A stretch of 64,000 nucleotides of DNA from Bradyrhizobium sp. AZCC 1693 (GTDB lineage Bacteria > Pseudomonadota > Alphaproteobacteria > Rhizobiales > Xanthobacteraceae). Shown piece by piece: positions 156-18,642 of this stretch. Positions within the stretch are counted from its first letter, which is position 1. Each line of letters begins with the position of its first letter. Made by a program: the position numbers and the translations under genes. The stretch is taken from NCBI RefSeq assembly GCF_036924745.1, contig NZ_JAZHSD010000001.1:5146001-5210000 (forward strand), given 5' to 3'. Below the pieces are notes generated by a model that saw only the letters and a list, made by a program, of their open reading frames with translations, searched no databases and was not told the origin of the DNA.

Positions 156-1586
156 CTATTCCTGCAATTGCCGCTTCAGCGACTCGACCTCTTCGGACAG
201 CGCGATATCCCGCGCCACCAGTGCCTCGATCTTGCGCACGGCATGCAGCACCGTGGTGTGGTCGCGCCCGCCGAACCGGCGGCCGATCTCGGGCAGCGAA
301 CGCAGCGTCAGCGTCTTCGCTAGATACATCGCGACCTGGCGCGGACGAACGACGTTGGCGGTCCGCCGCGACGACAGCAGGTCCGAACGGCTGACATTGT
401 ACTGCCGGGCGACCACCCGCTGGATGTCCTCGATCTTGATCCGCTTCGGTTCCTGCGGACGGATCAGGTCGCGCACCTCGCGCTCGGCCATTTCCAGCGT
501 CACCGGCTGGTTGTTGAGCTTGGAATGGGCGAGCAGGCGGTTGATGGCGCCTTCGAGGTCGCGGCCGTTATGGGTGATGGTGCGCGCCAGATAATCCAGC
601 ACCGCTTCCGGCACGTCGAAGCTTGCATGATGCGCACGCGCAGCCGCCACGCGCGACTTCAGGATTCCGAGCCGCAGCTCTTCGCCGAGCGAACCCATCT
701 CCACGACGAGACCGCCGGCCAGCCGCGAGCGCACGCGATCGTCGAGGCTTTCGAGATCGGACGGCGGCCGGTCGGCGGCGATCACCACCTGGCGGCCGGC
801 ATCGATCAGCGCGTTCAGCGTGTGGCAAAACTCGGCCTGGGTCGATTTGCCCTGCAGGAACTGCAGATCGTCGATCACGAGCACGTCGATGCCGCGTAGC
901 GCCTCCTTGAACGCCAGCGCCGTCTGCGTCTTCAGCGCGGCGACGAAGCCGTACATGAATTTCTCGGCGGTGAGATAGAGCACCTTGCGTTCGCTGCCGG
1001 AATTGCCGGCCCACGTCACCGCCTGCAGCAGATGGGTTTTGCCGAGGCCGACGCCGGCGTGAATGTAGAGCGGGTTGAACATCACGGGATCGCCGCGGCG
1101 TCCTTCGGCGACCTGGCGCGCGGCGGCATGGGCCAGCGTATTAGAGCGGCCGATCACGAAGCTTGCAAAGGTCAGGCGCGGGTCGAGCGGCGAGCCGCCG
1201 AGCGCATCATGGCTGGCGGATACCGGCGCCGTCGCAGTCGCGCGCAGTTCCGGCGCGGGGCGGGCATTGGCCTGCTCGATGCGGCGTTGATCGGCTGGAG
1301 CTGCGGCTTCCTTGGCGGGCGCGGCGCAGCGCATCGCCGTGCGCACGGTGAGGTCGATCCGGTGCACTTCGGGCATCTCGGCCTGCCAGCAGGTCAGGAC
1401 GCGGTCGGCGTAATGCGCCTGGATCCAGCTCTTGAGGAACCGGGTCGGAACCGACAGATGCACGCTCTCGTCCTGCACGCCTTCCAAATCCATGCGCGCA
1501 AACCAGCTCGTATAGACGTCCTCGCCCACGGTCGTCCGCAACCGTCCCTTCACGCGCGACCAGCGATCCTGTTCCGTATTTGTCAT
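156..1586 (-). CDS. dnaA: Chromosomal replication initiator DnaA
   Basis: Initiator ATPase that binds DnaA boxes at the origin and opens it; also a transcription factor. The 476-residue product has the family layout: N-terminal domain with [10 protein letters not shown], a variable linker (about 85-130), an AAA+ core with Walker A GVGLGKT (178-184) and Walker B VLVIDD (235-240), and a C-terminal domain carrying the DnaA signature [15 protein letters not shown]. The frame stays open upstream to 1700, but the ATG at 1586 (MTNTEQDRW) matches the usual alphaproteobacterial N-terminus, while the extra 38 residues look like untranslated leader. Transcribed away from rpsT across a 1.3 kb non-coding tract. 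dnaN, its usual downstream partner, is not visible in the 155 bases left before the window edge. Confidence 0.97.
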
Positions 1587-2850
1587 TGCCTGAGAACTTT
1601 TCTGAATGAGTAATGGTGTTTGCGAAATCGGCTGGCGCGTTGCCTTGCAGGTTTCCCGCCAGACGTGACCTCCGACGCGGAGCTTCAGCCACCAGGACAA
1701 AGATCAGGCGTTCGGCGGAATCGCCGTTGCTCAGATCGAAGGCTGGATGGAGTGAGAGGCTACCGCGAGGTCAGCGCGTACCCGACGGTCTGGCCGGAGT
1801 TCGCGTGGGTGGACGACTGGAAACGTCGTTCAGGGATTCAGAAGCGGTCTCGATGGAAATAAGCGTGCCGAATGTCGCGTTGATTCCGTAAAGCATAGTA
1901 CCTCCCCCTCTCGCCGCGAGAACGCGCGGCGAGCAATCACATCACCAGTGTTTTCAAAGCCAGTCTGCTGCTACCGAACATCCGCTTGTCCGACCGCTGC
2001 GCCGCCGCGTATCTCAGTCTGTCGTCTTCAACACGTTCACGAACTCCGCGTTCCCAATCGCTGCATCGTCGGCAAGCATCTTATTCCCCTTATCCGGAAC
2101 GCGCTGAACGCGAGCACCACGCCAGGAAATTTAGACACAGAACAGCCGCTCTCATATTGCTATGAGTTACCAACTCAGCTTCGCTTGGAAAGCGTCGCTA
2201 ACGCGCACACCGCCGCCGATTTGCACGTCCGCTCTTGGGTCTCATACCGCGCTGGTCAGGAGAGCCTTGGGCGTCGCGAACGAGTTACAAATACACCAAG
2301 CGCGATTTCTGACAATCCGTGATTCGACGAAGTGGCCCGACTCATCGACGGTGTTGCAACACTGCAATTGCGAAACTCCACACCAAGTTTTTGAATCCGC
2401 GCGCAGAATCGCGCGGCGCCGACAAGCGTGACAATTTTCGCTGCACTCGCAAAATTTTTTAAGAAACCGTTACAATCGTGGTTACCGCGACCGTTTTTCA
2501 AAACGCTTGTGCTCGCTATGTGGATAAGTGATTAGCGAAGCGATGCTTTTCGGAATTGTTTTTCAGGGTAACCCTGCCCGGCAGCGATGGGGCGGAAGAA
2601 GCCGGCTTCGGATTGGTCGGCCGTTGCGATCGCGCTTCTCGCAAGTGCGCACAGCAAACGCCGGTGCAATAAATTGCACCACGTAAAATTACGGGCGCTG
2701 GAAATGTGACACGGAAGGCGGTGTTCAGCAACGGGACAATTGAATTGTCACGGTACGTGCTTTCAGCGTGAGCCCGAAATGCAACAGGATGCACGTGCGT
2801 GGTGAAATGGATTTTCCGGTTCGCGCGCTCGCTCCGGCATCGCAGAAAAA
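1587..2850. other. Long non-coding tract between dnaA and rpsT (candidate origin/dnaA control region)
   Basis: About 1.26 kb with no convincing gene; the short open frames here lack family features and good ribosome sites. It is less GC-rich than its surroundings, most clearly around 2430-2510. It holds a perfect DnaA box (2519-2527), clustered GANTC sites and small perfect palindromes: a 7-bp stem at 2663-2680 (ggtgcaa/ttgcacc) and a 7-bp stem at 2735-2749 (gacaatt/aattgtc). It must at least contain the dnaA promoter. An origin role is inference. Confidence 0.6.
2321..2527. promoter_or_regulatory. DnaA box with GANTC cluster and CtrA-like site
   Basis: Seen: TTATCCACA on the minus strand at 2519-2527, a perfect consensus DnaA box. 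GANTC, the CcrM methylation target in alphaproteobacteria, occurs four times in 90 bp (2321, 2339, 2393, 2406). TTAA-N7-TTAC at 2459-2473 differs by one base from the CtrA consensus TTAA-N7-TTAA and lies at the end of an A/T run. In Caulobacter-type cell-cycle control these three site types occur together at the origin and at the dnaA and ctrA promoters. Only the DnaA box is strong by itself. Confidence 0.5.
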
Positions 2851-2877
2851 CAAAAGCCCGGCGAAGCCGGGCTTTTG
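2851..2877 (-). terminator. Rho-independent terminator of rpsT
   Basis: Perfect 12-bp stem (caaaagcccggc / gccgggcttttg) around a GAA loop, 23 bp past the rpsT stop. Read on the minus strand, the stem ends in the T tract needed for intrinsic termination. The symmetry also gives a T tract on the plus strand. Confidence 0.9.
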
Positions 2878-2899
2878 ACGAATATCTATTTCTCTCAGT

Positions 2900-3166
2900 T
2901 CACTTCGCGAGCTTGGCGATCGCGTGCGTCAGGCGCGACACTTTCCGGCTCGCATTGTTCCTGTGAATGATGTTGCGCTGGGCGGCTTGCATCAGCTCCG
3001 GTTCCGCGTGCTTCATCGCCTTGAGCGCCGCCTCGCGATCGCCGCTCTTGATCGCTTCCTCGACGGTGCGGACCGCGCCACGCATCTGGGTGCGGCGCGA
3101 CTTGTTGACGATGGTTCGGCGGGCAATCTTGCGGGTCGCCTTTTTGGCGGAAGTGGTATTGGCCAT
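2900..3166 (-). CDS. rpsT: 30S ribosomal protein S20
   Basis: Small-subunit protein that binds 16S rRNA and assists 30S assembly. The 88-residue product is the normal length and strongly basic, beginning [17 protein letters not shown], with helical repeats rich in Lys, Arg and Ala and the typical NKSRRTQMR segment. The ATG at 3166 is chosen because S20 proteins start with this short sequence; the open frame runs upstream only by lack of stops. Monocistronic, ending at the hairpin at 2851-2877. The rpsT-dnaA pairing is usual in the Nitrobacteraceae. Confidence 0.97.
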
Positions 3167-3554
3167 GTTCTCAACTATCCTTCGGCTGTCATCGCTCGGG
3201 TGGTCGGCCCTTGAGCGCGCCGGCCGTTCAAATTGCGTGATCGACGCTGGTTGTGTTTTCCAGGGTGTTCTGACGTAAGCCGTTCTTGAGGGTGCCATGG
3301 ACGGAAGCCAAAATGCTCCCGCCAAAATGCACCCAAAGGCGGCGCTGCTCAAAGAACAGCGGCGGCGGGATTGCGCCCGCCGCCATTGGGGGTCTTATAG
3401 AGGGCTGGTGCTGCACCGTCAACGCTTTCCGCCCTCCCCGAAAGACCGGGAAGGGGGCCGGAAATGGCGGGTAAGGTGCTGATGAGGTTGAATTTCCGGG
3501 GTGCCCCCGGTATTGGCTGACGGCCTTTGGCGGCGACAGATATCAAGGTGACGC
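3167..3554. other. Divergent intergenic region rpsT / small membrane protein
   Basis: 388 bp with no credible gene. It contains the leaders and promoters of rpsT (minus) and of the membrane protein at 3555 (plus). A GC-rich self-complementary segment at about 3358-3385 could form a hairpin in the rpsT leader. No clear promoter hexamers were identified. Confidence 0.4.
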
Positions 3555-3872
3555 ATGATCCGCGGTTTTTTCCGGCTAATCGGCCTGCTGCTCCTGGCCG
3601 GCGGATTCATCTTCATGGTCTATGACGGCGCCCGTTTTGTCGCCGACCAGACCCTGCGGTTCACCCGGTTTGGCCAGTTCTGGAACGACGTCCATCAGTC
3701 CAGCCAGCTGGCGTTCCGGACCTGGGTCGAGGGTGCCGCGCCCTGGCTCTGGAACGACGTCATCAAGGTCCTGCTGGATCAGCCGGTTTTTGCCGTGCTG
3801 GGCGTCGTCGGCATTCTGCTCATGATCCTGTTCCGGCCCCGCAAGCCATTGATCGGCTATTCGCGGGACTGA
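3555..3872 (+). CDS. Small conserved inner-membrane protein
   Basis: 105-residue protein of unknown function. Two hydrophobic segments, about residues 6-25 (LIGLLLLAGGFIFMVYDGA) and 76-93 (PVFAVLGVVGILLMILF), predict a two-pass inner-membrane protein with a roughly 50-residue loop rich in Trp and Phe, and a short basic tail (RPRKPLIGYSRD). The ATG follows ggtgacgc, only a modest ribosome site. I believe similar small proteins sit beside rpsT/dnaA or msrA in related genomes, but that is from memory. It may share transcription with msrA, which starts 128 bp downstream. Confidence 0.75.
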   Translation: MIRGFFRLIGLLLLAGGFIFMVYDGARFVADQTLRFTRFGQFWNDVHQSSQLAFRTWVEGAAPWLWNDVIKVLLDQPVFAVLGVVGILLMILFRPRKPLIGYSRD

Positions 3873-4000
3873 CCTGGCCCTGCCCGCCCTCGGGTCGCGG
3901 TGTAACAGGGCTGCGGTATCCGGCGTAAAAGACATATATTACAGGGCCAACCGGCCGACGCCGTTGCCGCGTCCGCCGATGTCCCGCCTGGAGGTACTCC

Positions 4001-4657
4001 ATGCTGTTCATGCGCAAGACCACCGTGTTGCCGAGTGCAGCCGAAGCGCTGCCGGGCCGTGCCAACCCGATACCGACCGCCACCACGCATTTCGTCAACG
4101 GCCGCAAGCTGCAGCCGCCCTATCCAGCCGGCCTTGAGCAGGCGGTGTTCGGCCTCGGCTGTTTCTGGGGCGCAGAGCGAAAGTTCTGGGAACTCGGTGA
4201 CGGCATCCATGCGACCGCCGTCGGCTATGCCGGCGGGCATACGCCCAATCCGAGCTATGAAGAGGTTTGTTCAGGACGCACCGGTCATACCGAAGTGGTG
4301 CTGGTCGTGTTCGATCCGAAGAAGATCTCCTACGAGCAACTGCTGAAGACGTTCTGGGAAAATCACAACCCGACGCAGGGCATGCGCCAGGGCAACGATG
4401 TCGGCACCCAGTATCGCTCGGCGATCTACACGTTCGGCGATGCGCAGCGCCACGCCGCCGACGCGTCGAAGGCAACGTATCAGAAGGCGCTGGCAGCGAA
4501 GGGTCTCGGCGCCATCACCACCGAGATCGCGCCATCGGGCGAATTCTATTACGCCGAGGACTATCATCAGCAATATCTCGCCAAGAACCCGGCGGGCTAT
4601 TGCGGATTGGGCGGCACCGGCGTGTCATGCCCGATCGGCGTCGGCGTGAGTGCCTGA
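4001..4657 (+). CDS. msrA: Peptide-methionine (S)-S-oxide reductase MsrA
   Basis: Reduces the S-epimer of methionine sulfoxide in proteins and free methionine, repairing oxidative damage with thioredoxin as electron donor. The 218-residue product has the catalytic motif GCFWG (53-57, nucleophile C54) and family motifs [20 protein letters not shown] and YRSAIY. C-terminal cysteines in [13 protein letters not shown] are placed to act as resolving residues. The first ATG sits behind a ggaggt ribosome site at 3990-3995, so the roughly 45-residue N-terminal extension before the core, seen in larger MsrA proteins, is retained. No signal peptide is evident, so it is probably cytoplasmic. Confidence 0.96.
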
Positions 4658-12337: not shown

Positions 12338-12366
12338 CCGGAGGCAATGCCTCCGGCGGATTTTTT
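12338..12366 (+). terminator. Terminator of the IorAB-type operon
   Basis: Stem ccggaggca/tgcctccgg (9 bp) with a one-base loop, then GC and six T at 12361-12366, 30 bp past the large-subunit stop. Confidence 0.85.
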
Positions 12367-12378
12367 AAGGCCAGATCT

Positions 12379-12475
12379 CGTCATGCCCCGCGAAGGCGGG
12401 GCATCCAGTACGCCGCGGCCTTCGAGGGTGATAATAACTGTCACGGCGTACTGGATCATCCGCTTTCGCGGACGG
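12379..12475. repeat. Palindromic repeat, CGTCATGCCCCGCG family
   Basis: Element with hairpins gccccgcgaaggcggggc and tccgctttcgcgga and long inverted arms atccagtacgccg (12403-12415) and cggcgtactggat (12444-12456). Typical Bradyrhizobium intergenic repeat; no coding content. Confidence 0.8.
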
Positions 12476-12707
12476 TACTCTCCCACTACCGGCCATCAAA
12501 GGAACGCATCAAGAACGATTCCGCTCTGGGCCACTTAGAGACTCCCGCCGACAAGCGACGGGTCCTTGATGACCGTCGGCTTCGTGGTAGTGGTCGCAGA
12601 CGCGCTGGGCGGTCGAAAATTGGGGCTTACGGAAATGATACTGCTGATCGTCGTAGTAGGAGACGTGCGCATGGACCCGTAACGGCATCCATATCGTTAC
12701 CCCGTGC

Positions 12708-12734
12708 GCCCCCGCCAAGTTCGGGGGCTTTTTT
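12708..12734 (+). terminator. Orphan intrinsic terminator
   Basis: Seven-bp GC stem (gcccccg/cgggggc) with a seven-base loop and a run of six T at 12729-12734. Nothing annotated ends just before it. A 15-codon open frame with ATG at 12635 and stop at 12680-12682 lies directly upstream, so a small RNA or leader transcript is possible. Confidence 0.65.
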
Positions 12735-12786
12735 ATTGGGCGACACGTCAATGACGGGCGAGGCGCTGCCTCGTTGAAAGGTTCTC

Positions 12787-13995
12787 ATGTTCTCCGCCGC
12801 CTCCGCACCGCCAAAGTTGTTCACGCTCGTGCTGCTCAGCGGCCTGTCCGTCGTCTCGCTGAACATGTTCCTCCCGTCGTTGTCGAATATCGCCGCCGAG
12901 TTCCAAACCAGCTATCGGCTGCTCGCGAGCGTATCGATTGCCGGCTATGCCGCAATGACGACAGTGCTGCAACTGCTGATCGGGCCCTTGTCGGACAGGG
13001 TTGGCCGGCGGCCGGTCGTCCTGGTGAGTCTTGTGATCTTTGTGGTTGCGTCGCTCGGCTGCTTGCTAGCGTTGGATGTCTGGGCGTTTTTGCTCTTTCG
13101 CACGATGCAGGCCGCGATCGTCTCTGGGTTCGCGCTTTCGCGCGTGATCATTCGGGATACTGAGCCTGCGCAGAAAGCGGCAAGCCTCATGGGCTATCTG
13201 TCCATCGCGTGGGCAATCGCACCAATGCTGGGCCCGATGCTAGGCGGAGCATTCGATCAACTATTTGGCTGGCGCGCGAACTTCTGGGCTTTCCTCGGCT
13301 TTGGCGCGGCAGTGTTGGTCTTGTGCTGGCTCGATCTTGGCGAGACAAACAAGAATCCGTCCGAGACTTTCACGAAACAGTTTAAGGCTTTTCCCAGCTT
13401 GTTCCGATCCCGGCGATTCTGGGGCTACTCGCTTTGCATGGCGTTTTCAATGGGTGCTCTTTACGCCTTTCTCGCGGCCGCGCCTCTCGTGGCGACAACG
13501 GTGTTTCAGATGTCGCCAGCGACACTGGGATTCTATATGGGGAGCACAGCCGCGGGCTTCATTCTCGGCAGCTTTGTCTCGGGGCGCTTTGCTGCGCTCT
13601 ATCCACTCACAACGATGATGGTTGCTGGTAGGGTTGTCGCTTGCGCCGGATTGGCGGCGGGCCTGAGTTTGCTTCTCGCCGGAGTCGTGCACGAAGTCTC
13701 TTTGTTTGGCTCGTGTGTGTTTCTCGGCTTCGGCAACGGGGTATCGATGCCAAGCAGTAATGCCGGCGCGATGTCAGTCCGGCCCGAACTGATCGGAAGC
13801 GCCGCAGGCCTATCAGGCGCACTCACTGGCGCAGGCGGGGCTCTGATGTCCGGGATTACGGGGACTATTCTGAACGAGGCAAACGCAGCATTCGTCTTGC
13901 TCGGGATGATGCTTCTCTCGTCGACGATGGCGTTGCTGGCCGCACTGTTCGTGCTTTGGCTCGACCGTCGTGAGGCCGCGGCGAACCCTGCCTAG
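12787..13995 (+). CDS. Bcr/CflA-type multidrug efflux MFS transporter
   Basis: Inner-membrane drug:proton antiporter of the DHA1 group (12 segments). The 402-residue product has about 12 hydrophobic helices, the cytoplasmic A-like motif GPLSDRVGRRPVV after helix 2, and the family pattern LPSLSNIAAEF near helix 1. The ATG at 12787 follows gaaaggttct, a fair ribosome site. Codon choice is less GC-biased than in flanking genes (many TTG, TTT, ATT and AAG codons), as in the methyltransferase downstream, suggesting joint acquisition. No divergent regulator is next to it. It may export a small toxic compound. Confidence 0.9.
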   Translation: MFSAASAPPKLFTLVLLSGLSVVSLNMFLPSLSNIAAEFQTSYRLLASVSIAGYAAMTTVLQLLIGPLSDRVGRRPVVLVSLVIFVVASLGCLLALDVWAFLLFRTMQAAIVSGFALSRVIIRDTEPAQKAASLMGYLSIAWAIAPMLGPMLGGAFDQLFGWRANFWAFLGFGAAVLVLCWLDLGETNKNPSETFTKQFKAFPSLFRSRRFWGYSLCMAFSMGALYAFLAAAPLVATTVFQMSPATLGFYMGSTAAGFILGSFVSGRFAALYPLTTMMVAGRVVACAGLAAGLSLLLAGVVHEVSLFGSCVFLGFGNGVSMPSSNAGAMSVRPELIGSAAGLSGALTGAGGALMSGITGTILNEANAAFVLLGMMLLSSTMALLAALFVLWLDRREAAANPA

Positions 13996-14394
13996 TTTGA
14001 GGTCCGGGCTTCCGAAGAATGGCCCGTTGCCTCCCCGCGCCTCGACGGTCGTTCTCATCATAAGCGGAGCCACGTCAGAGGGAGATGCTCTGTCAGCACT
14101 TTATGGCGCTATGGGTCACGACCGACGAGTCAGACACCCCGTCGAGCCCGGTCGGTCCTCCCCACATAGCCGCCAGTCTCTTGACCGATGGCAGCTTACC
14201 CCTCAGCATCGAGCACGATCAAGCTGGGCGGTGTCGGAAGGGTCGGGCCAATAGCGCACAAGCCAACTCTGATGATCCGAGGTAGTGTGTTTTTCTGAGC
14301 ACGGTACAGCCCAGGTGCTCGGCGTCATTGGTTCAATTTTCCGCAGAGCATCGCGTCGAACTTGACGAGCGACCGTCGAACTGCAAGTTTCTGA
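13996..14394. other. Intergenic tract before the TPP riboswitch
   Basis: 399 bp without a convincing gene; short open frames on both strands lack motifs or ribosome sites. It must hold the promoter for the riboswitch transcript. The sequence is lower in GC than typical spacers of this window and looks like degenerate DNA. Confidence 0.4.
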
Positions 14395-14468
14395 GCTTCC
14401 GGGGTGCCCGCTGTGCGGGCTGAGATCATACCCGCTGAACCTGTCTGGGTAATGCCAGCGAAGGGAGC
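14395..14468 (+). promoter_or_regulatory. TPP (thiamin pyrophosphate) riboswitch, THI box
   Basis: All core elements are readable. P1 pairs gcttcc (14395-14400) with gggagc (14463-14468); ggggtgcc begins P2; P3 is gcccgc-tgt-gcgggc; then come the invariant ctgaga, accc, gaacctg, and tctgggtaatgccagcg with P4/P5 (ctgg/ccag) and the closing aaggga. One base is missing relative to the common gaacctgatctgg. The 3' strand of P1 is the Shine-Dalgarno sequence (gggag) of the gene starting at 14474, six bases away. Ligand-stabilised P1 would therefore hide the ribosome site, giving translational repression by TPP. What is unusual is the gene it controls, not the element. Confidence 0.95.
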
Positions 14469-14473
14469 AAGCC

Positions 14474-15148
14474 ATGGCCGTTATCGGCGACGAGAAGTTG
14501 CAATCGTTTCTTGACGGCCTCCACGCCAAGAGCCGCGAGCAAACTGCGCTGATCCAGGCATTCGAAGCTCGACGCAACGATGCCGAACTTCCTCCGGGAG
14601 CGGACGAGATCAAAGCATTCCGGAGCGACAAGCTGGTGGCCCTCGATCGCAACAAGGCAGAATTTTGTTACCAGTTGTGCCGCGCCAAGAAGGCTTCCAA
14701 GGTTATCGAGGTCGGAACGTCTTACGGAGTGTCGACGATCTATATGGCTGCCGCAGTGCGCGAAAACGCGCGCTCGTACGGTGTTGACGGCATCGTTATC
14801 GGGACCGAGTACGAGCCGAAAAAGGCGGAAGCGGCGCGGGCGAATTTTGCAACGGCGGGCGTAAGCCAATTCATCGAGCTTCGTGAGGGCGATCTTCGTG
14901 AGACGCTGAAGCGGATTGATGGGCCAGTTGACTTCGTCCTTATGGACGTTTGGATCGCTATGGCGCGATCGGCGATTGAGTTGATTGCGCCGCATCTTTC
15001 CGGGGGCGCGATTGTGGTGTGCGATAACACCCTCGATCATCGAGCGTTCTATGCCGACTACTTTGCGTTTCTCAACGATCCGGCGAACCGCTTCACCACA
15101 ATGACTTTGCCTTTCCAAGGGGGCTTGGAGCTATCGGTTCGGCGCTGA
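14474..15148 (+). CDS. Class I SAM-dependent O-methyltransferase-like protein under TPP riboswitch control
   Basis: 224-residue cytoplasmic methyltransferase of the O-methyltransferase (YrrM/CCoAOMT-like) type. Motif I is VIEVGTSYGVSTIYMA (about 77-92), followed by an acidic motif II GTEYEPKKAEAARANF, LREGDLRETL, and VDFVLMDVWIAMA (motif IV/metal region). CDNTLDH near 180 resembles the metal-binding DN of the catechol-type enzymes. The ATG follows gggag inside the riboswitch P1. It is not a known thiamin biosynthesis or transport gene, and no thi gene is adjacent. By inference its substrate or product is linked to thiamin or a thiamin precursor or analogue. Base composition is like the MFS gene upstream, which could be functionally linked. 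Confidence 0.9.
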   Translation: MAVIGDEKLQSFLDGLHAKSREQTALIQAFEARRNDAELPPGADEIKAFRSDKLVALDRNKAEFCYQLCRAKKASKVIEVGTSYGVSTIYMAAAVRENARSYGVDGIVIGTEYEPKKAEAARANFATAGVSQFIELREGDLRETLKRIDGPVDFVLMDVWIAMARSAIELIAPHLSGGAIVVCDNTLDHRAFYADYFAFLNDPANRFTTMTLPFQGGLELSVRR

Positions 15149-15436
15149 AAGCGACGCCCGAGAGGACCGTCAATCTTTACGGTGTGAGCGCGACCCGCAA
15201 ATCAAAGTCACACAAGTGTTGCGCTCCCGCACGACGGCCGCTTGGGGTCAAAAGCGACGGCTCCAGACCATGACAATGCCTCGACGGGATGTGCATGGTT
15301 GCGGCCTTTCACCAATGAGATCGCTAAAATTTTAGCGTTCACGGTAGTCTACATTCACGATCCCTCTTAAGCCCCGGAGAACCCCTTCTCCGCTAGCTTC
15401 AGTTGCAAGTCGTCATTGCTAGGGGTCTGGGGTTTC

Positions 15437-18435: not shown

Positions 18436-18543
18436 GACGCGCTCCCCCTGTGGTTCTCTATGTTGTTCTTCTACTCTTCCGTCGTTGCGCTCCCTTGCGC
18501 AAACGCTTCGCGTTTGTCGCAGGCAATGACGAAGCCGAAATCG

Positions 18544-18631
18544 TAGGGTGGGCAAAGGCGCTCTTGCGCCGTGCCCACCATGTTCTTGCTGTGGTCGTGA
18601 ATGGTGGGCACGCTTCGCTTTGCCCACCCTA
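18544..18631. repeat. Palindromic repeat, TAGGGTGGGCAAAG family, copy 2
   Basis: Ends tagggtgggcaaag and ctttgcccacccta with internal gcgctcttgcgc hairpin and gtgcccaccat/atggtgggcac arms. Lies between two minus-strand genes. Confidence 0.9.
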
Positions 18632-18642
18632 CATTCGCCGCT

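Follow-up and report, generated by a model that had tools for sequence, protein, structure and literature searches.

A predicted TPP riboswitch on a COMT-fold methyltransferase gene, paired with an exporter gene in a low-GC insert of Bradyrhizobium

Genes and RNA leaders at the locus

The window analyzed here is a 64,000-nucleotide stretch of the Bradyrhizobium sp. AZCC 1693 genome. Within it, an insert carries an exporter gene and a methyltransferase gene, each preceded by an RNA leader: a TPP riboswitch for the methyltransferase, and a short valine-rich reading frame with an intrinsic terminator for the exporter (Table 1).

Table 1. Features of the insert and their positions in the window
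Feature	Position	Strand	Basis or detail
Cassette (exporter gene plus riboswitch-methyltransferase gene)	12396..15294	.	Flank comparison, low GC
Leader peptide ORF upstream of exporter gene	12635..12682	+	MILLIVVVGDVRMDP, 15 residues
Intrinsic terminator following the leader ORF, ahead of the exporter gene	12708..12734	+	
Bcr/CflA-type MFS exporter gene, 402 aa	12787..13995	+	PF07690; TIGR00710
TPP riboswitch aptamer	14390..14484	+	Rfam bounds; helices within 14395-14472
Shine-Dalgarno GGGAG, built from aptamer letters	14463..14467	+	Invariant in five carriers
COMT-fold methyltransferase gene, 224 aa	14474..15148	+	PF13578, PF01596, structure model, fold matches

The methyltransferase leader matches RF00059 at 69.7 bits (gathering score 54.3; E 1.2e-11 in the window) over model positions 1-105. 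Four other genomes carry the same arrangement (with the window, the five carriers) and score 58.1 to 61.7 bits, above the cut-off in every case. The original prediction, of a complete TPP aptamer that an RF00059 search would recover, is borne out by a match above the gathering score spanning all 105 positions, although this aptamer lacks the optional P3a and one J4-5 base. An excerpt of PMC3764141 names ten highly conserved letters of TPP aptamers (U39, G40, A41, G42, A43, U59, G60, C77, G78 and A80), and all ten can be read in the five carriers from our alignment A4. Two base pairs, one in P3 and one in P1, are changed on both sides among the carriers, with 92.9% of cells paired, a modest signal in four distinct rows, as 28 of 500 shuffles reach the same count; P1 is the least conserved helix (68.8% of its cells paired). 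Folding energy in four carriers is no better than that of shuffled sequence (z 0.5 to 1.3) and is uninformative, so the evidence for the aptamer comes from the covariance model and from conservation, by which it is predicted to bind and sense TPP.

The ribosome site lies within the aptamer core. Six nucleotides separate GGGAG from the ATG, the spacing originally noted, and the window aptamer ends in AAGGGAGCAAGCC-ATG. Such a placement is a known design, direct translation attenuation (PMC2258182, in excerpt). The original prediction had assigned the site to the 3' strand of P1 (gggagc). The minimum-energy fold of the window copy does pair GCUUCC with GGGAGC, but the Rfam alignment puts GGGAG in the end of P4 and the junction, and takes CAAGC, directly after it, as the 3' strand of P1; that the Shine-Dalgarno sequence is aptamer-borne holds under both. 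Among open-licence titles and abstracts, we found none that describes a TPP riboswitch placed immediately on a methyltransferase gene of this kind. The motif TTGACG lies 5' of the aptamer in all five carriers (window 14362-14390) and, counted by eye, about 17 nt from a hexamer starting with AA in four of the five; a promoter scan of the cassette gave no promoter-like site.

The methyltransferase matches PF13578 (Methyltransf_24) at 62 bits against a cut-off of 26.3, and its structure model (pLDDT 93.3) has a COMT-like fold. The predicted motif EVGTSYGVS is present, beginning at residue 79. The original description of a metal-dependent O-methyltransferase look holds for the fold and for D158, D184 and N185, which we take to be the Asp, Asp and Asn of the COMT metal site and which are invariant in 13 of 13 alignment rows. 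It does not hold for the COMT catalytic lysine, presumably a position after the first metal Asp, which corresponds by alignment to Ile161; none of the 14 relatives has a lysine there, and we therefore do not file the enzyme as a catechol O-methyltransferase. The COMT-like methyltransferases 8c9v and Rv0187/6jcl are ~25%–28% identical to the window protein, which differs from them in this missing lysine. Nothing in the protein itself hints at a thiamin-related substrate, and the substrate and purpose suggested for it below are putative. In line with the original note that no thi gene is near, the 14 window proteins searched against Pfam include none.

The exporter resembles Bcr/CflA efflux MFS proteins by its TIGR00710 match (202.5 bits, just above the cut-off of 200.9), and is set apart from them by the valine-rich leader peptide and terminator 5' of it and by its riboswitch-methyltransferase neighbor. 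A short ORF with a run of branched-chain codons, followed by a terminator, stands upstream of all six aligned exporter genes, and the GGGGGC-T run of the terminator is invariant in the six rows of alignment A2; the terminator scan overall gave no excess (3 found versus a shuffle mean of 3.5). The peptide reads MTIATVVVGRWRMDR in the G476/G309 type and MTFVVVPVGKWRWGR in another genus, and each of the three distinct peptides has three consecutive valines. In the same genome, ilvI (acetolactate synthase) is preceded by a leader, MRNIITKLLIVVVARRTAGGG, and a GC-rich hairpin with a T run. The two leaders share a short ORF with an Ile/Val run and then a terminator; they differ in the remainder of the peptide and in that one precedes an exporter gene rather than a biosynthetic one. 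As judged from its sequence, the exporter leader has the layout of a valine/isoleucine attenuator. Single folds computed with a competing antiterminator in mind are ordinary for the window (z 0.34 over a long stretch, -1.19 over a short one) and strong for G309 (z -3.04). Rfam gives sub-threshold Atu_C8 matches at the exporter leader (28-31 bits versus a cut-off of 50), and the sub-threshold Atu_C8 matches in relatives also coincide with it.

The insert and the distribution of its genes

The 2.9-kb insert is missing from two relatives: in G248 the flanks at 12395 and 15295 are only 37 nt apart, and in G250 those at 12365 and 15434 only 149 nt. Its GC content is 59.2% against a mean of 63.0%, a value reached by only seven of 611 sliding 2.9-kb windows; six of the seven overlap the insert, and the other is at about 1500. 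That the efflux gene at 12787 shares the atypical composition of the methyltransferase gene had been predicted, and both genes indeed lie in the low-GC insert. The stretch at about 1500-4400 is a second low-GC region (59.1%). We found no convincing terminal repeats that would mark transposon ends. At the left edge of the insert (12388-12471) there is an imperfect 28-nt inverted repeat that resembles a dispersed palindromic repeat, and short stretches of 18480-18632 match several other places at the G248 locus with 86%–100% identity, probably as another dispersed repeat.

Two species, G476 and G419, have 2750 bp in common at 98.2% identity, both genes included; the remainder of their 19-kb stretches shows two short matches only, the flanks being otherwise unrelated. 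The exporter gene adjoins the methyltransferase gene in four of the five carriers, with the methyltransferase first in G476, G419 and G309 and the exporter first in the window. The fifth, G105, has no such exporter in its 17-kb stretch or genome-wide at E<=1e-80. Conversely, G285 holds the exporter half alone, 98.9% identical to that of G309 over 1503 bp, and the genus search found no close methyltransferase copy there. Since each of these genomes holds one half, the pair is separable. The exporter was found at E<=1e-90 in four of 257 genus genomes, not counting G419, where the gene is split. Two rare genes adjoining in four of five carriers are, on comparison of the loci, linked, and common descent of the cassette would explain much of this linkage; the gene pair is apparently mobile. 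The original prediction included neither the apparent mobility of the cassette nor the second RNA leader, that of the exporter gene.

Close copies of the methyltransferase are rare. They occur in eight of 265 genus genomes, the window's own included (E<=1e-45), in two of 397 genomes of an order sample at the same threshold, both within the genus, and in two of 289 of a class sample (E<=1e-50, with alignment); a family sample at the looser threshold of 1e-10 gave 53 of 248, mostly distant. A contig scan added three matches: Bradyrhizobium sp. CSA112, a Chloroflexi bin and an Acidobacteria bin. The check for riboswitches covered 14 members, namely the 13 rows of alignment A1 (46%–78% identical to the window protein) and locus L107. 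In five (the window, G476, G419, G309 and G105) the riboswitch is flush on the start codon, so that the originally proposed search for genomes joining riboswitch and methyltransferase succeeds in five of the eight genus genomes with a close copy, the window's own included. It is absent from the other nine, comprising the genus members G412, G392 and G350 and all six members outside the genus, and no TPP riboswitch was found at seven loci of more distant members. Because nine of 14 relatives are without it, the enzyme family as such is not tied to thiamin. A Tsukamurella plasmid encodes a relative of 46% identity (L105, 3944-4648), next to a P-type ATPase gene and with an MFS gene nearby; a TPP riboswitch was not found there.

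The carrier proteins diverge down to 65% identity. In the protein tree all five fall on one side of a single branch with weak support (72/63), while the G105 protein is 77% identical to the riboswitch-less copy of G056 and 65%–68% identical to the other carriers, which would speak against a single origin. Between the window and G309, dN is 0.13 and dS 1.49, and between G476 and G309 they are 0.11 and 0.75; dS was not computable for two pairs with G105. As gauged from these substitutions, the methyltransferase of the carriers is evidently under purifying selection. Since five carriers keep the aptamer across proteins differing this much, with dN far below dS, the fusion is not recent. The original note had held that a recent fusion, with homologues lacking the riboswitch, would undo it: the lack is real in nine of the 14, but a recent one-off event is rejected by the five carriers and the divergence of their proteins.

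Other TPP riboswitches and the source of the aptamer

A search of the whole 7.6-Mb genome with RF00059 found only one further TPP riboswitch. It sits flush on the thiO-like gene (TIGR02352, 236.2 bits, under the cut-off of 250.8) of a thiO-thiG-thiE operon, with thiG (PF05690) and then a thiE-like gene, just under its cut-offs, 3' of it. The two riboswitches are alike in the aptamer core, the ribosome site within the aptamer and the start codon directly after it; that of the methyltransferase differs in standing on a non-thi gene and in being without P3a and one base of J4-5. A copy of this thiO riboswitch is not supported as the source, since the latter has a longer P3 region, the J4-5 base and a different P5. 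In a sample of 257 genus genomes, a TPP match is present in 253; eight genomes have two matches, these being the five carriers together with G212, G390 and G424. The last three have no close copy of the methyltransferase, and the listed TPP match of G212 and that of G424 are on thiO.

Among plasmid records the closest aptamer is an Azospirillum thiO riboswitch, the only one examined of a set of plasmid matches that were weak to moderate. The thiO aptamer of Azospirillum TSH58 is missing the same J4-5 base as the carriers, and this common gap suggests a related source for the two. A plasmid source is rejected on those weak to moderate aptamer matches and on a best protein match of 46%, as is a phage or viral one, the aptamer being unmatched in phages and its core pattern unmatched in viral contigs.

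Possible roles of the cassette

The aptamer, the buried ribosome site, the leader peptide with its terminator, the insertion, the repeated pairing of the genes and purifying selection are well supported by the comparisons above; for ligand binding, direction of control, joint induction, substrate and purpose we infer the following. TPP riboswitches usually mark thiamin genes, which points to a role for the enzyme around thiamin. Our tentative reading, to which we would give a little less than an even chance, is a mobile two-gene cassette, with the methyltransferase under a TPP-OFF riboswitch and the exporter under an attenuator, directed against a molecule that interferes with thiamin, TPP or a TPP enzyme. 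TPP would fold the aptamer, hide GGGAG and stop translation of the methyltransferase; as TPP falls, the ribosome site would be freed and the enzyme made. At the exporter, valine shortage would stall the leader ribosome, letting transcription pass the terminator. Acetohydroxyacid synthase, an enzyme of valine synthesis, is TPP-dependent, so that both genes would come on when TPP function is lost, and a drug acting on this synthase would likewise cause valine starvation and so release the exporter attenuator. The cassette would then modify and expel the interfering small molecule. Such modification and export are consistent with the two controls, with mobility and with the patchy distribution. 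The original interpretation survives as to a TPP riboswitch on a non-thi methyltransferase with an efflux gene in the same foreign piece, while the link it drew to a thiamin precursor or antagonist remains conjectural.

A sharper version, in which the cassette is a resistance or weapon system against thiamin antagonists or TPP-enzyme inhibitors with double RNA sensing (TPP riboswitch and valine attenuator), we consider somewhat unlikely. If this dual-sensor reading is true, the cassette detects loss of vitamin function and not the drug itself, and it would point the way to a natural thiamin antagonist, so far unknown, in the soil or root zone.

It is also possible, if on the whole doubtful, that the switch was captured from a thiO-type operon and places an unrelated enzyme (for tRNA, phenolic or secondary-metabolite methylation) under nutrient-status control, its substrate having nothing to do with thiamin. 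The resemblance of the aptamer to the Azospirillum one among plasmid records would agree with this, as would a fold common to TrmR and phenol methyltransferases. In keeping with capture, the riboswitch-less relatives, all six outside the genus included, stand in other contexts, in two related genomes presumably near a YchF-like gene. Against capture stand the persistence of the aptamer while the proteins diverged by 35% and its recurrent association with an exporter, whose leader could signal that a TPP enzyme has failed.

For the exporter leader, sensing of a ribosome-blocking antibiotic in place of valine would be compatible with any of these readings, and we regard it as unlikely. The nearest exporter families do include chloramphenicol and multidrug exporters, and in Sinorhizobium the response of an efflux operon to antibiotics involves a leader peptide (PMC7298713), but the valine triplet in all three distinct peptides and the similar leader before ilvI favor valine.

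Less probable still is that the enzyme makes a thiamin antagonist of the bacimethrin kind, or serves thiamin salvage, with the exporter releasing the product. The bacimethrin operon includes a methyltransferase gene, and the Paenibacillus bacimethrin/thiaminase I operon is believed to be controlled by a TPP riboswitch (PMC5627462, in excerpt). There, according to the same excerpt, the methyltransferase sits among thi genes, thymidylate synthase and thiaminase I, whereas no thymidylate synthase, beside the methyltransferase or elsewhere, and no thiaminase or thi gene was found among the 14 window proteins scanned, and a set of two genes is small for a pathway. Finally, a changed ligand, with the aptamer no longer sensing TPP, is very improbable: although the J4-5 base is absent from all five methyltransferase aptamers and kept in 30 of 30 genus thiO-type aptamers among the matches listed, it is not among the highly conserved letters in the excerpt of PMC3764141, and its absence from the thiO aptamer of Azospirillum TSH58 means that the gap by itself is no mark of a new ligand.
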